Positions 40,511-45,463 of a stretch of 64,000 bases of DNA are shown in pieces. A program made the translations under genes and the position numbers. The stretch comes from Limnochorda pilosa (GTDB taxonomy: Bacteria > Bacillota > Limnochordia > Limnochordales > Limnochordaceae). The stretch lies in the NCBI RefSeq assembly GCF_001544015.1, contig NZ_AP014924.1, positions 1,178,001 through 1,242,000 on the forward strand. Reading direction: 5' to 3'. The notes beneath the pieces are model-generated. The model did not search any database, had not been told where the DNA came from, and saw only the letters and a list, made by a program, of their open reading frames with translations. Position 1 is the first letter of the stretch; each line of letters starts with the position of its first letter.

Positions 40511-40527
40511 TCCCACCCTTCCCACCC

Positions 40528-40554
40528 GGGCCCGCGACCTCCGGTCGCGGGCCC
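40528..40554 (+). terminator. Strong hairpin terminator
   Basis: GGGCCCGCGACC and GGTCGCGGGCCC form a perfect 12-bp stem with a 3-nt loop, 18 nt after the stop of the HEAT-like gene. A short T-poor stretch follows, so termination may be hairpin-driven. Confidence 0.65.
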
Positions 40555-40575
40555 GCTGCATTCCCGCGTGTTCGC

Positions 40576-40604
40576 TTGGAATGCGTGCATGAATTTCCTA
40601 TCTC
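40576..40604 (+). promoter_or_regulatory. Possible promoter before the coiled-coil/HTH gene
   Basis: TTGGAA (40576-40581) and TATCTC (40599-40604) with a 17-nt spacer lie in an AT-richer patch between a terminator and the next gene. Confidence 0.35.
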
Positions 40605-40665
40605 CCCTCCATACTAAGCCGCGAAAGACGGCGAGGGACCCAAGGACGGAAGAGGGGGAGAGATC

Positions 40666-41382
40666 GTGGCGCGATCCAATCGGCAGAAGCAGCCCTACTA
40701 CGCGAAGCTGGTGGGGGAGAAGTCGGCGGAGCAGGTCCAGCGCTCGCCCGAAGGAGAGGGAGAAGAGACGGGCGATCCCTTCCAGAGCGTCTACGCTGAG
40801 ATGGGCATGAAGGCCTTCGGGGCCTTCACCAACCTCCTGGACTACCTGTCGGTGCTGCGGCCCGCGGAGGCCCTGGGCTGGGGGAGGGGTGGCGAGCAGG
40901 CTCGCCGGGTGATGGAGGAGGCCGTGCGGCCCGCGGCCCAGGAGATCATGGAGCTCCGGGCCCGCCTGGACCGGGTCGAGGCCCAGATGGTCCAGGTGGT
41001 CGCGGGCATGAACCGCATGGACCGCTTTGCCCTGGACACCTTCCGCCAGATCGAGGAGCTGACCCGCCGCCTTTCCCAGATTCAGGAGCGGGTCGAGGCG
41101 GCCGCCCGGCAGATGGAGGCGCTGGGGCCCTCCGTGGACCGCTGGGCCGTGGTGCGGGGGCGCATCCCCAAGGAAGAGGCCGTGGAGCTGGCCATCAACG
41201 CCGCCCGGGAGCTCCGGCTGAAGGGGCGGAAGCTCACCCTGGCTGCGGTGGCCCGCCAGGCAGGGCTGAAGTACGGCCAGGTGATGTACGCCTTCGGCAA
41301 CAAGGAGCGATTCTTCCAGCAGCTGGAAGGCGCCCTTGCTGCGGGCGAGGTGGAGGCCCTCTCCGAAAGCGCTTCGGCCTGA
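40666..41382 (+). CDS. Coiled-coil protein with C-terminal TetR-like HTH
   Basis: A 238-residue soluble protein. Residues about 78-152 are a long heptad-rich helix (EIMELRARLDRVEAQM, FRQIEELTRRLSQIQERVE). Residues about 188-216 (TLAAVARQAGLKYGQVMYAF) closely resemble the DNA-binding domain of TetR regulators, followed by GNKERFF, but at the C-terminus rather than the N-terminus. The N-terminal 60 residues have a Phe/Leu-rich patch. It could be a DNA-binding or chromosome-organising factor; function unknown. GTG 40666 has AGGGGGAGAG upstream. Confidence 0.7.
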   Translation: MARSNRQKQPYYAKLVGEKSAEQVQRSPEGEGEETGDPFQSVYAEMGMKAFGAFTNLLDYLSVLRPAEALGWGRGGEQARRVMEEAVRPAAQEIMELRARLDRVEAQMVQVVAGMNRMDRFALDTFRQIEELTRRLSQIQERVEAAARQMEALGPSVDRWAVVRGRIPKEEAVELAINAARELRLKGRKLTLAAVARQAGLKYGQVMYAFGNKERFFQQLEGALAAGEVEALSESASA

Positions 41383-41420
41383 CCCGACCCGGCGCGGTCT
41401 GAGTCGCAGGCGGGGTCAGG
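41378..41420. terminator. Weak convergent hairpin
   Basis: CCTGACCC and GGGTCAGG can pair (8 bp) across a 27-nt loop between convergent genes and could act in both directions. The large loop lowers confidence. Confidence 0.3.
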
Positions 41421-41979
41421 GCGTGCGGCCCGGCTTCCCATACCCCACCAGGCGGGTGGTGGAGAGGCCGGGCCGCAGCTCCACCAGCACCAGCTCGATG
41501 CCGAGGCGCTCCAGCGTGGGCGCCTCGGGGAGCGTCCGGGGGGTGTAGTCCCCGCCCTTCACGTACACGTGGGGACGGACCGCTTCCAGCAGACGGTCCG
41601 CGTGGAGGTCGCCGAAGAGGACCACGTAGTCTACGGGCTTCAGGGCGGCCAGGAGCAGCGCCCGGTGCGGCGCTGGCTGGACGGGCCGCCCGGGGCCCTT
41701 GAGGCGGCGCACGGAGAGGTCCGTGTTCAGCCCTACCACCAAGCGATCCGCGCGGGCGCGAGCGGCCTGCAGGAGGTGCAGGTGGCCCGGATGGAGCAGG
41801 TCGAAGCATCCGTTGGTCAGGGCCAGGCGGAGCCCGGCGGCGGCCAGGGCCGCCCCTTCGGCCTGGAAGCTCCAAAGGTCGAAGATGCGGGCCGCCGTCT
41901 CGCCGGCCGTCCAGGACGGGGAGGGCCCTGGCCCTGGGGGCGTCGGGGCGGCCGTACCCGGAGAGCCGCCAGGACTCAT
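41416..41979 (-). CDS. rfaE2: D-glycero-beta-D-manno-heptose 1-phosphate adenylyltransferase
   Basis: A 187-residue nucleotidyltransferase making ADP-heptose for surface glycans. The cytidylyltransferase-fold motif is LTNGCFDLLHPGHLHLLQAA, with KGGDYTPRTLPE and a C-terminal STTRLVGYG. In E. coli this activity is fused to the kinase as HldE; here the two are separate, the ATG overlapping the kinase stop (ATGA). The N-terminal Pro/Gly-rich 28 residues are extra. It is the last gene of the glycan operon. Confidence 0.92.
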   Translation of the reverse strand: MSPGGSPGTAAPTPPGPGPSPSWTAGETAARIFDLWSFQAEGAALAAAGLRLALTNGCFDLLHPGHLHLLQAARARADRLVVGLNTDLSVRRLKGPGRPVQPAPHRALLLAALKPVDYVVLFGDLHADRLLEAVRPHVYVKGGDYTPRTLPEAPTLERLGIELVLVELRPGLSTTRLVGYGKPGRTP

Positions 41980-43028
41980 CGGGTGGACGCACCCCCGAAG
42001 GCCGGCGGATCCACGGGCTCCGGGGAGGGTAGCTGATCGTCCAGGGCTTCCAGCATCTCCTCGGGGGAAACCGTGGCCGTTCCAGGCTTGCGAACCACGA
42101 TGCCGCCGGCCACCGAGGCCAGGAGCGCCGCCTGCAGCACGCTCCCGCCGGCAGCCCGGGCCAGCGCCAGTACCGCGGCTACCGTGTCACCGGCGCCGGT
42201 GACGTCGTAGACCCGGGCGGGCCGGACGGCGGGGACGTGGTGCACGGGCCCTCCGGCCAGGGCTACCACCAGGCCCTCCTCTCCCCGGGTGACCACGGCC
42301 GCGCTCACCTCGAGCCTGCGGCAGAGTTCGAGGGCGGCCCGGGCCGCGTCCTCGCGCCCGCGCAGGGGAAGGCCCAACCACTCCTCCACCTCCGACTGGT
42401 TGGGCGTGGGCATCCCCAGCCCCCGGAAGAAGTCCAGGCGGTGCCGGGTGTCCACCACCACCGGCGGCGCTCCCTGCACGAATCGGCTGGCGTAGCCCCG
42501 CAAGAGCTCCAGGGCCGACCGGTCGACCACCCTGTCCGCGTAGTCGGCGACGAGGACCGCGTCGGCCGCGCCCAGGGAGCGGGTGAGCGCGATGCGGAGG
42601 GCGGCGCGGGCATCCTCGGGAGGCTCCCATTCCTCGTTCTGGTCGATGCGCAAGACCTGCTGCTGGAGGGCATGCCGGCCCCCCGCCACCACCCGGGTCT
42701 TGGTGATGGTGCGCCCCCCCGGGACCTCCACCAGCCCCTCGGTGGAGGCGCCCATGACGGCGAAGGCGGCCATCAGCGCCTGGCCGGGCTCGTCGTCGCC
42801 CACGAGACCCACGGGCACGGCCAGGCCGCCCAGGGACGCCACGTTGGCGGCCGCGTTCCCGGCTCCACCCGGCCGTACCTCGCGCCCCTTCTCGCGCAGG
42901 ATGAGCACCGGCGCCTCCCGGGAGATGCGCGCCGGCTCCGCGAAGAGATAGCGGTCTGCCAGGAAGTCGCCCACCACGCAGACCCGGCACCCGGCGAAGG
43001 CTCGGATCAGCCGCTTCAGCGCCGCCAC
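41976..43028 (-). CDS. rfaE1: D-glycero-beta-D-manno-heptose-7-phosphate kinase
   Basis: A 350-residue PfkB-family kinase that phosphorylates heptose 7-phosphate at C1. Family segments are VVGDFLADRYLF, RPGGAGNAAANVASLGG and the catalytic VYDVTGAGDTVAAVLALA (Asp as base). GTG 43028 gives the family N-terminus AALKRLIRAFAGCRV, though its ribosome site is weak. It is 144 nt after the GT4 gene and overlaps rfaE2. gmhA and gmhB are not in the window. Confidence 0.92.
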   Translation of the reverse strand: MAALKRLIRAFAGCRVCVVGDFLADRYLFAEPARISREAPVLILREKGREVRPGGAGNAAANVASLGGLAVPVGLVGDDEPGQALMAAFAVMGASTEGLVEVPGGRTITKTRVVAGGRHALQQQVLRIDQNEEWEPPEDARAALRIALTRSLGAADAVLVADYADRVVDRSALELLRGYASRFVQGAPPVVVDTRHRLDFFRGLGMPTPNQSEVEEWLGLPLRGREDAARAALELCRRLEVSAAVVTRGEEGLVVALAGGPVHHVPAVRPARVYDVTGAGDTVAAVLALARAAGGSVLQAALLASVAGGIVVRKPGTATVSPEEMLEALDDQLPSPEPVDPPAFGGASTR

Positions 43029-43172
43029 GGACAGGTTATCGTCACCGGTCGGGGGAAGAGGTGGGCCGGGGTCTCGAAAGGATCGTAGGGGATCGAAAGG
43101 GTCGTGGACGGACGTGGAGACTCCCTCCTCAGGGTGACCGGTCGCTCTGGCTTCAGGAGGAGGCGCGGAGGC

Positions 43173-44348
43173 TCATCCTACGGCGGTCGGCCCCTGGGCC
43201 TGGGCGTGCTCGGCCCCGGCGTCCGCGTAGGCCTGGAGGAGCCGGTCGGTCATGCGGGCCACGGAGAGCTCCGCAGCCCGGCGCCTGGCCTCGGCCGCCA
43301 TGCGGTCCCTCCTCTCCTTGTTCGACAGGAGCTCGAGCACCCTTTCCACGAAGGTCGGGACGTCGTGGGGGGTCAGGTAGCCGTCGATACCGTCCCGCAC
43401 CAGGTCGGTGACGCCCGAAGCGGAGACAGCCACCACCGGCAGCCCTGCGGCCATCGACTCCGCGATGACGAGCCCCTGGGTCTCGGTCTGGGAGGCGAAG
43501 ACGAAGAGGTCCGCCCCCGCGTAGGCGTCGATCACCCGCTCGTGGGGGAGGAAGCCGGTCATGATCACCCGGCCGGCCACGCCCAGAGCCCGGGCCCGGG
43601 CCTCGAGGCGTTCCCGGTCGGGCCCGCCCGCCGCCAGGACCAACCAGGCCCGCGGGACCTTGGGAAGGATGAGCGCCATGGCTTCCAGCAGGAACTCCAG
43701 GTTCTTCTCCCGGGCCAGCCGCCCCACGTAAAGCAGGACGGGATCGCCCGGCTTCGTGGCCCACTCGCGCGAGAGCCACCCGGGGTCGCCCGCCGCCAGG
43801 GCGTCGGGATCGATGCCCGTGGGGATGACGCGGATCGGCCGCGTCACGCCCTGGGCCCGGATGCGCGCCTCCACCGGCTGGCTGGGGGCGATCACCAGGT
43901 CGCAGCGGTTGGCGAACGAGCGGACCCAGTGGACGGTGAGGCGGCGGGTCACCTGGGGCGGCGTGAAGGGGACGTAGTGCACGTACTCATCGTACAGGGT
44001 GTGGTGGGTGAAGACCACGGGCACCCCCAGACGCCGGGCGAGACGGGCGCCCAGCCTCCCCATGAGGAAAGGCGAGTGGACGTGGATCACATCAAGGGCC
44101 AGCTCGCGGGCCCTCCGGGTGAGGTGGGGCGCGAAGGGGAGGGCCAGGCTGAACTCGGGGTTGCTGGGCGCCCTCACCGAGCGAAAACGGTAGACGTCCG
44201 GCTCGTCCTCCCGGTGGCCCGGGTATGACGGGGCGAAGATCGCGACCGCGTGGCCCCGCCGCCGGAGCTCGCCCGCGAAGCTCTCGATGGACCGCACCAC
44301 CCCGCTCACGTACGGCCGGTAGCTGTCGGAAAACATGCCGATGCGCAC
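43173..44348 (-). CDS. GT4 glycosyltransferase
   Basis: A 391-residue retaining glycosyltransferase. The N-terminal domain carries RIGMFSDSYRPYVSGVV and HVHSPFLMGRLGARLA; the C-terminal nucleotide-sugar domain carries LLYVGRLAREKNLEFLLEA and the E-x7-E motif ETQGLVIAE. It resembles enzymes of the GDP-mannose-dependent alpha-mannosyltransferase group. The GTG is two bases after the GT9 stop with GAGGGG upstream. The acceptor could be a lipid or an LPS-like core. Confidence 0.9.
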   Translation of the reverse strand: MRIGMFSDSYRPYVSGVVRSIESFAGELRRRGHAVAIFAPSYPGHREDEPDVYRFRSVRAPSNPEFSLALPFAPHLTRRARELALDVIHVHSPFLMGRLGARLARRLGVPVVFTHHTLYDEYVHYVPFTPPQVTRRLTVHWVRSFANRCDLVIAPSQPVEARIRAQGVTRPIRVIPTGIDPDALAAGDPGWLSREWATKPGDPVLLYVGRLAREKNLEFLLEAMALILPKVPRAWLVLAAGGPDRERLEARARALGVAGRVIMTGFLPHERVIDAYAGADLFVFASQTETQGLVIAESMAAGLPVVAVSASGVTDLVRDGIDGYLTPHDVPTFVERVLELLSNKERRDRMAAEARRRAAELSVARMTDRLLQAYADAGAEHAQAQGPTAVG

Positions 44349-44350
44349 GT

Positions 44351-45463
44351 TCAGGGCCCCTCGAAAGCCGGCACCGTCGACTGGGCCGCCGTTCGCTCGA
44401 GAAGCGGCCCGGCTGCGGCCATGACGTCGTCCACGGTGATCTGGCGGATGCACTCGAAGTTGCACGCCGGGTTGCGGAAGGAGTGGAGGTACAGGTTGGC
44501 CGCCTCCAGCCAGTGGATGCACGGGCCGCACACGTCGCGGCGCACCACCCGGTGCATCTCCCCGAGAGGCCGGAAGTTGGCGGGGTCCGTGGGGCCGAAG
44601 AGGGCGACCACCGGCGTGCCCACCGCCTCAGCCATGTGCATGGGCCCCGAGTCGTTGCCGATGAAGAGCTGGCAGGCCTGAAGCACGGCGGCCGTCTGGC
44701 GGAGCCCCAGGGATCCGGTGAGGTCCACCATGGGTCGCCGTGCCTGCCGCATGATCTCGCCGGCCAGCTCCACGTCGTCCTCCCCACCCACCAGCACCAC
44801 GCCCGCCCCGTAGCGATCCACCAGGCCGTCGGCCACCTCGGCGAATCCCCGGGTGGACCAGCGTTTCCCGCGAAAGAAGTGACCGCCCGGGTGGATGGCC
44901 ACCAGCGGGCGTCCGGCCACACCCCGCCGGGCCAGGAGCCGCACGGCTTCCGCCCTCTCCGCGGGTTCCAGGTAGAGCCGGAGCCGGAGGGGGACCTCCG
45001 GGGCCCCGCAGGCGCGCACCACGTTCAGGCAGTAACGAGCTGCGTGAACCTGCCGGTCGTCGGGGATGGGCACGGTGTAGAGCCAGCCCAGCTCCTCGGA
45101 ACGGAAGCCCGCCCGGAAGCGCGCCCGGATCAGGGCGAGCAGCCAGCTTCCAAAATGGGAGAGGCCCACCGCCAGGTCCAGCGACCGCTCCTGCAGCTCG
45201 TGAAAGGCCTTGGGGAGCTCCAAGCTGTTCCGGCAGGCGATGATCTCGTCGACGTGGGGGTTTCCCCGCAGGAGCGCCGCGTTGCTCTGCCAGCAGCAGA
45301 CGCTGATGCTCGCCTGGGGGTACGCGAGATCCAGGGCTTCGAGGGCCGGGGTGGCGAAGAGGGTGTCCCCCAGCGGGCTCAGGAGGAGCACCAGGATGCG
45401 TTGGATCGATGCCGGATCGAAGGGCTCCTGGCCGGTCTCACCTTTGGCAGAGAAAGGAAGCAT
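44351..45463 (-). CDS. GT9 glycosyltransferase (ADP-heptose transferase-like)
   Basis: A 370-residue GT9 enzyme resembling WaaF/WaaC/WaaQ heptosyltransferases. The N-terminal motif is RILVLLLSPLGDTLFATPAL, the linker HPGGHFFRGKRW, and the donor-binding motif FIGNDSGPMHMAEAVGTPVV with LFGPTDPANFRP. Cysteines in CGPCIHW and PACNFECI are conserved in some members. It heads the four-gene glycan operon. With rfaE1/rfaE2 it indicates ADP-heptose use and hence a probable outer membrane or heptosylated surface polymer. Confidence 0.9.
   Translation of the reverse strand: MLPFSAKGETGQEPFDPASIQRILVLLLSPLGDTLFATPALEALDLAYPQASISVCCWQSNAALLRGNPHVDEIIACRNSLELPKAFHELQERSLDLAVGLSHFGSWLLALIRARFRAGFRSEELGWLYTVPIPDDRQVHAARYCLNVVRACGAPEVPLRLRLYLEPAERAEAVRLLARRGVAGRPLVAIHPGGHFFRGKRWSTRGFAEVADGLVDRYGAGVVLVGGEDDVELAGEIMRQARRPMVDLTGSLGLRQTAAVLQACQLFIGNDSGPMHMAEAVGTPVVALFGPTDPANFRPLGEMHRVVRRDVCGPCIHWLEAANLYLHSFRNPACNFECIRQITVDDVMAAAGPLLERTAAQSTVPAFEGP

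Follow-up and report, generated by a model that had tools for sequence, protein, structure and literature searches.

The gene at 40666–41382 (+) of the window, the 64,000-nucleotide stretch analyzed here (bases 1178001–1242000 of one 3,817,036-base contig), encodes a 238-residue protein with a GTG start that belongs to an unnamed family of constant domain order, recovered by computational searches, in which a coiled coil is followed by a C-terminal helix-turn-helix (HTH). We tentatively propose, with a little less than even confidence, that the product is a forespore-expressed oligomeric DNA-binding regulator, working like RsfA or SpoVT. If so, some deep-branching spore-formers would possess a forespore DNA-binding factor for which no description was found in open-licence PMC titles and abstract beginnings, and the common TetR HTH would have been recast as a ligand-free, coiled-coil-driven protein. 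A lineage-specific forespore regulator would also illustrate the replacement of later control layers, and 40666–41382 is a specific gene on which experiments can be done in a lineage that has received little study.

The gene is a real one because it has orthologues, one of them 75% identical and from the same genus, and 11 others in the class at 32–41% identity. A likely ribosome-binding site (GAGGGGGAG, 40652–40660 (+), by sequence reading) lies directly 5′ of the start codon. The next gene upstream is HEAT-like, with a HEAT_2 match in Pfam at E 0.0093 only. Between it and the promoter described below, the 13-bp arms of a perfect inverted repeat flank a 3-base loop (40527–40555), with no T run; the repeat may keep the two transcription units apart. 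The window protein passes no curated Pfam or NCBIfam cut-off and has no match in PHROGs at E 0.01, where four other family members have at most one weak match each. A PDB sequence search gave a designed scaffold as its best match (E 0.006), together with coronin coils and weak TetR matches. Window 41416–45463 (−) holds a split HldE-like pair (a cytidylyltransferase, PF01467, and a PfkB kinase), a GT4 glycosyltransferase and a GT9 heptosyltransferase-family gene, possibly genes for ADP-heptose or LPS-like sugars in a genome with sporulation genes.

The HTH (residues 164–222; 41155–41331 (+)) is a homologue of the DNA-binding domain that TetR regulators carry at the N-terminus, as Pfam, AlphaFold2, Foldseek, VIA-align and profile comparison all indicate. 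Pfam TetR_N aligns with residues 179–219 but, with 19.5 bits, stays short of the 24 bits set as its cut-off; it reaches E ≤ 0.01 in 13 of 17 family members, paralogues counted. In the AlphaFold2 model (built from 12 sequences; mean pLDDT 72.8 and pTM 0.31 for the whole chain), HTH helices span residues 169–185, 192–199, 203–210 and 213–237, with a pLDDT of about 90. The 50 PDB matches listed by Foldseek, of 885, are TetR-family chains, the best at E 0.033 and none below 0.001. VIA-align likewise lists TetR-family chains (50 of the 886 with Z of 2 or more; Z 7.7–9.6 over 55–77 residues), with model residues 162–238 aligned on their N-terminal part; the chains listed by either program are assigned to the TetR family by title or, where the title is silent, by their known identity. 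Comparison of the family profile with nine TetR N-termini gave 98.7% at E 2.3e-16, the nine having been picked by that same profile and not being independent. The sequence-only reading, which had placed a TetR-like HTH behind a long coiled coil and noted that TetR regulators carry theirs at the N-terminus, is thus borne out on both counts: the predicted fold contains the HTH, and 19 TetR proteins met in the search for family members have it N-terminally, the reverse of the window protein.

Conservation within the HTH points to specific recognition. The third helix (residues 203–210; 41272–41295 (+)) would be the recognition helix by analogy with TetR, and its region fits L-[KR]-Y-[GA]-Q-[IV]-[VM]-Y-A-F-G-[NR]-K in 13/13 class orthologues, a near invariance expected for one conserved DNA target. 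In the second clade, C replaces F210 and S replaces K213, so that DNA contacts may differ there. Residues 161–222 carry a net charge of +6. Behind the HTH the chain ends in a tail of variable sequence, 16 residues long in the window protein, with no ligand-binding domain.

The coiled coil (residues 81–153; 40906–41124 (+)) stands as described in the earlier reading: its hydrophobic residues recur with a period of 3.5, equally strong in 0 of 5000 shuffles, 20 of its 21 a/d positions hold hydrophobic residues (with alanine included; best of seven registers), and AlphaFold2 models residues 75–153 as one helix. From so regular a coil, we infer that the protein likely oligomerizes through it. What had been called a Phe/Leu-rich head corresponds to a conserved helix (residues 38–63, with three Phe and three Leu; 40777–40854 (+)), seen in both AlphaFold2 and conservation. 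Folded alone, the head gave helices only (pLDDT 71.3, pTM 0.32), and its helical periodicity is not significant. It is preceded by a conserved N-terminal peptide (residues 8–25; 40687–40740 (+)), modeled as a helix at low confidence.

This arrangement is common to 18 genomes, 13 among the 72 of the protein's own class and five among the 12 of a second, and the HTH is C-terminal in 18/18 orthologues. A protein search of 60 relatives gave matches in 16 genomes, mostly full-length orthologues, and a profile search of the 72 class genomes found 13 carriers of the full-length gene, spread over families f1, f2, f6, f10 and f12, with matches outside these families covering the HTH part only. Matches occurred in 36 of 398 sampled genomes of the phylum; the 26 loci inspected among them (L054–L079) comprised five full-length second-class members, the 19 TetR proteins with N-terminal HTHs, one chemoreceptor-like protein and one locus without a hit. 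A contig scan with two peptide patterns gave 11 loci, in bacterial MAGs that are labeled Bacillota or Clostridia or are unclassified. Residues identical in all 18 orthologues fall in the N-terminal peptide (Y11, Y12), the head helix (G47, A53, N56, L58), the coil (R117, D119, L123) and the HTH (R166, A179, L192, A196, R197, A199, Y203, Y208, A209), and the linkers and C-terminal tail are variable.

Since 13 of 72 class genomes carry the family while sigG is above cut-off in 64 of the 72, the family is dispensable for sporulation in general; sigG is also above cut-off in 5/5 second-class carriers. Small acid-soluble spore protein (SASP) genes are present in 68 of the 72 class genomes, with the family absent from 55 of those 68; all 13 class carriers keep SASPs, and the four SASP-less genomes all lack the family. 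Co-occurrence with sporulation genes was considered as a clue and set aside as uninformative, as nearly all class genomes have such genes. Paralogues were also seen. A shorter one, present in the same genus and carrying this HTH C-terminally too (L022:8621–9178 (−), at G000:C1 about 761620–762180, and L024:9154–9648 (+)), is directly followed 3′ by a gene with OB-fold and HD domains that reads as a YhaM-like nuclease. Divergent ones occur in two f12 genomes (L028:10764–11384 and L037:7571–8275), of which that in L028 is divergently oriented to a gene that reads as SbcD-like.

A forespore-type promoter, absent from the earlier reading, points to a sporulation role for 40666–41382. The σG consensus is GHATR-N18-CATNHTA, and the forespore σF/σG form, of the kind found before SASP genes, is GHATR-N17/18-CATNHTA. 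Upstream of the gene, GCATG (40587–40591), 18 bases and CATACTA (40610–40616) form a σF/σG-like site (40587–40616 (+)) that ends 49 bases 5′ of the GTG start, and upstream regions read by eye show GCATA or GCATG, 18–19 bases and then a CATACTA-like hexamer or heptamer. In C. difficile, σF and σG promoters are described as similar to each other and to those of B. subtilis, the −10 element having a preceding G for σF and a following A for σG (PMC3789822). The window site has the A after and no G before its −10 element, and so leans toward σG rather than σF.

Sites were scored with a matrix of 35 sites out of 40 SASP upstream regions fetched, against a background of 246 other gene starts from a simple gene finder that missed at least one real gene (the ABC ATPase of L183); spacers of 17–18 were scanned at first, and 19 was added after the f2 sites had been seen. 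Over 100 nt with spacers 17–19, the window promoter scores 18.1 and its sister-species orthologue, which keeps the site except for the last −35 base, 17.3, with 0/246 background starts as high in either case. As many as 3/246 are as high for L026, 7/246 for L025 and 0–2/246 for five f2 orthologues, which need spacer 19. A similar site (≤7/246) is therefore found in 9/13 orthologues, or 8/12 excluding the window gene, five of them only at spacer 19; L030, L031, L027 and L029 have no good site within 100 nt (32, 56, 113 and 184 of 246 as high). Over 200 nt, broadly the same nine are high, except that L025 drops to 13/246, and L030 rises to 7/246 at a different site; with spacers 17–18 only, 5/13 reach the same mark over 200 nt, including L030 at its odd site. 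A Mann-Whitney test gave p 2.6e-6, a value that overstates independence, the f2 sequences being close relatives.

Beyond the orthologues, the matrix gives no promoter support to the four paralogues (L022, L024, L028, L037; 29–175/246 background starts as high) and weak scores to four of the five second-clade members, those tested (3, 22, 22 and 67/246). Four second-clade loci (L080–L082, L084) have a conserved CACAT ... GG(T/A)AATA(A/G)TAAT block just 5′ of the gene, which we take to be reminiscent of a σF promoter. Two of the 12 best-scoring background genes are the SpoVT-like genes of L030 and L029. A genome search with up to two mismatches for the conserved promoter-region block GGAATGCGYGCATNAAT found the gene's own copy only, and with no second copy at that stringency, no regulon is visible through this block.

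Genome-wide counts show a modest excess over control: GHATR-N18-CATNHTA occurs at 3 sites in the 3.8 Mb genome, the window site among them, vs. 1 in the reversed control, and the looser GCAT-N18..20-CATNHTA at 10 vs. 4. Four of the 10 loose sites are correctly oriented and lie 28–56 bases before a start codon, namely those 28 bases before a SASP gene (the genome's own SASP promoter, spacer 19), 42 bases before the likeliest ytfJ/gerW start (with alternative starts at 21 and 63 bases; TIGR02874, 169 bits), 49 bases before the 40666–41382 gene and 56 bases before lonB (TIGR02902, 810 bits). The 56-base limit was set post hoc, the next sites being at 69 bases before a GntR/FCD regulator gene (a distance that takes an ATG inside the open frame as the start) and at 100 bases before a gene for an ABC ATPase; neither is known to us as a spore gene. 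Two more sites lie 132 bases before a TPR gene and 192 bases before an Rne/Rng ribonuclease gene, and the last two have no convincing gene downstream. lonB and ytfJ appear as σF genes in a published list (PMC3416734), and a reference title within PMC5506225 calls lonB transcription forespore-specific. These sites before spore genes are the strongest evidence that the sequence offers for a spore role of 40666–41382.

There is no conserved operon; neighbors vary between families, so that no partner can be named. A HEAT-like gene is upstream in the protein's own genus, and TrkA- and TrkH-like genes (names by reading) in f2. In f6, f10 and f12, a SpoVT-like gene lies upstream on the same strand within about 2.5 kb in 6/6 carriers, directly upstream in four of them. 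Of these six copies, a single one exceeds the NCBIfam SpoVT cut-off, and the other five fall short of it; the L025 copy matches Pfam SpoVT_C and combines a MazE/AbrB-type DNA-binding domain with SpoVT_C/GAF. Gene calls over 19 kb surrounding the window gene include no SpoVT-like gene, the SpoVT matches of that genome lying elsewhere, and many class genomes have a second full-length SpoVT-like gene beyond the best match. The second clade has other neighbors again. At L080, L081, L082 and L084, a convergent gene for a product of 556–594 aa lies downstream of the family gene (4/4 loci with room), the kinship of these genes being judged by eye from their N-termini.

Taken together, the near-invariant recognition-helix region, the missing ligand domain, the coil and the promoter favor a forespore regulator that would be turned on by being expressed. 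RNA polymerase with σG (or σF) would transcribe 40666–41382 in the developing spore, and the coiled coil would join at least two chains, standing in for the dimerization domain found behind the HTH in TetR proteins. The paired C-terminal HTHs would then recognize one conserved DNA target. Lacking a ligand pocket, the protein would be active according to when and where it is synthesized, and it would tune forespore gene expression, as RsfA or SpoVT does in Bacillus. The N-terminal YY peptide and head helix would probably serve in partner binding or in lengthening the oligomer.

A nucleoid role, raised by the sequence-only reading, is possible. Its fullest form would be a DNA-bridging forespore chromatin protein of deep-branching Bacillota, H-NS- or Rok-like. 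Its coil would oligomerize, and TetR HTHs moved to the coiled-coil end would coat DNA or link it into bridges, in the manner of H-NS, Lsr2 and Rok; the protein would thereby shape the nucleoid of the spore beside SASPs instead of controlling selected genes. The long regular coil, the variable linker, the net charge and a promoter type shared with the SASP gene are all compatible with this, as is the H-NS-like order of N-terminal oligomerization part, linker and C-terminal DNA-binding domain (PMC6936261). However, a near-invariant recognition-helix region (13/13) suggests specific sites, and SASPs are retained in all 13 class carriers, so that we regard a chromatin protein, the chief alternative to the regulator, as rather unlikely. 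The far-off conservation of Y11, Y12, G47, A53, N56 and L58 in 18/18 orthologues would in turn suit a tether or segregation factor, with the HTH on the chromosome and the N-terminal peptide and head on a partner at the membrane or the pole, so that the chromosome of the forespore would be anchored. Among the neighbors read, many without annotation, no partition or polarity gene was recognized, and the head lacks significant periodicity; we give such a factor only a slim chance.

The protein may otherwise be a vegetative orphan TetR-like repressor with a coil in place of the ligand domain, its promoter match being due to chance, as the TetR-like HTH, the lack of the promoter in 4/13 orthologues and the four paralogues, and motif sites before genes not known as spore genes would allow. 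The window score, reached by none of the 246 background starts, the conservation of the site in the sister species and the presence of this rare element before three spore genes argue against chance, and this repressor seems improbable to us, if a shade less so than the tether. The plasmid role of the earlier reading is disfavored by the location of the gene on a single 3,817,036-base contig. A granule role had also been suggested there. PhaF has a coiled coil and then a C-terminal DNA-binding part, and a polyhydroxyalkanoate granule protein (phasin) with a DNA-binding end would share this layout. PhaC_N was sought in the genome and not found, while a control search was positive in Caulobacter, and no phasin family is among the Pfam matches of the window protein and other members; a granule protein is thus disfavored, and its probability is close to nil.

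With TetR/AcrR proteins the window protein shares, in fold and profile, a homologous HTH and the following helix 4, but the window HTH is C-terminal (residues 164–222 of 238) where theirs is N-terminal, and no helical ligand-binding and dimerization domain stands behind it; by this architecture, the protein is not a TetR regulator. A search of open-licence PMC titles and abstract beginnings for C-terminal TetR HTHs with coiled coils, or for Limnochordia regulators, did not find the family. The likeness to RsfA and SpoVT would lie in the expected σF/σG timing and compartment and in the presumed DNA-binding role, whereas no sequence kinship was found. RsfA carries a Myb-like domain and has a model in NCBIfam, which is not among the six families returned by an NCBIfam scan of the window protein to E 5, and the SpoVT-like neighbor has a MazE/AbrB-type domain. 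From phasins and PhaF, the protein differs in having no phasin domain, in a genome with no PhaC_N match. The predicted order of an N-terminal oligomerization part and a C-terminal DNA-binding domain recalls Rok, H-NS, Lsr2 and MvaT (PMC6936261), but Rok has a winged helix that favors AT-rich DNA and the window protein a TetR-type HTH. KfrA also joins a DNA-binding head to a long coiled coil (PMC7821693); its head is N-terminal and its gene on a plasmid, whereas the window protein has the reverse order and is encoded on a 3.8 Mb contig.
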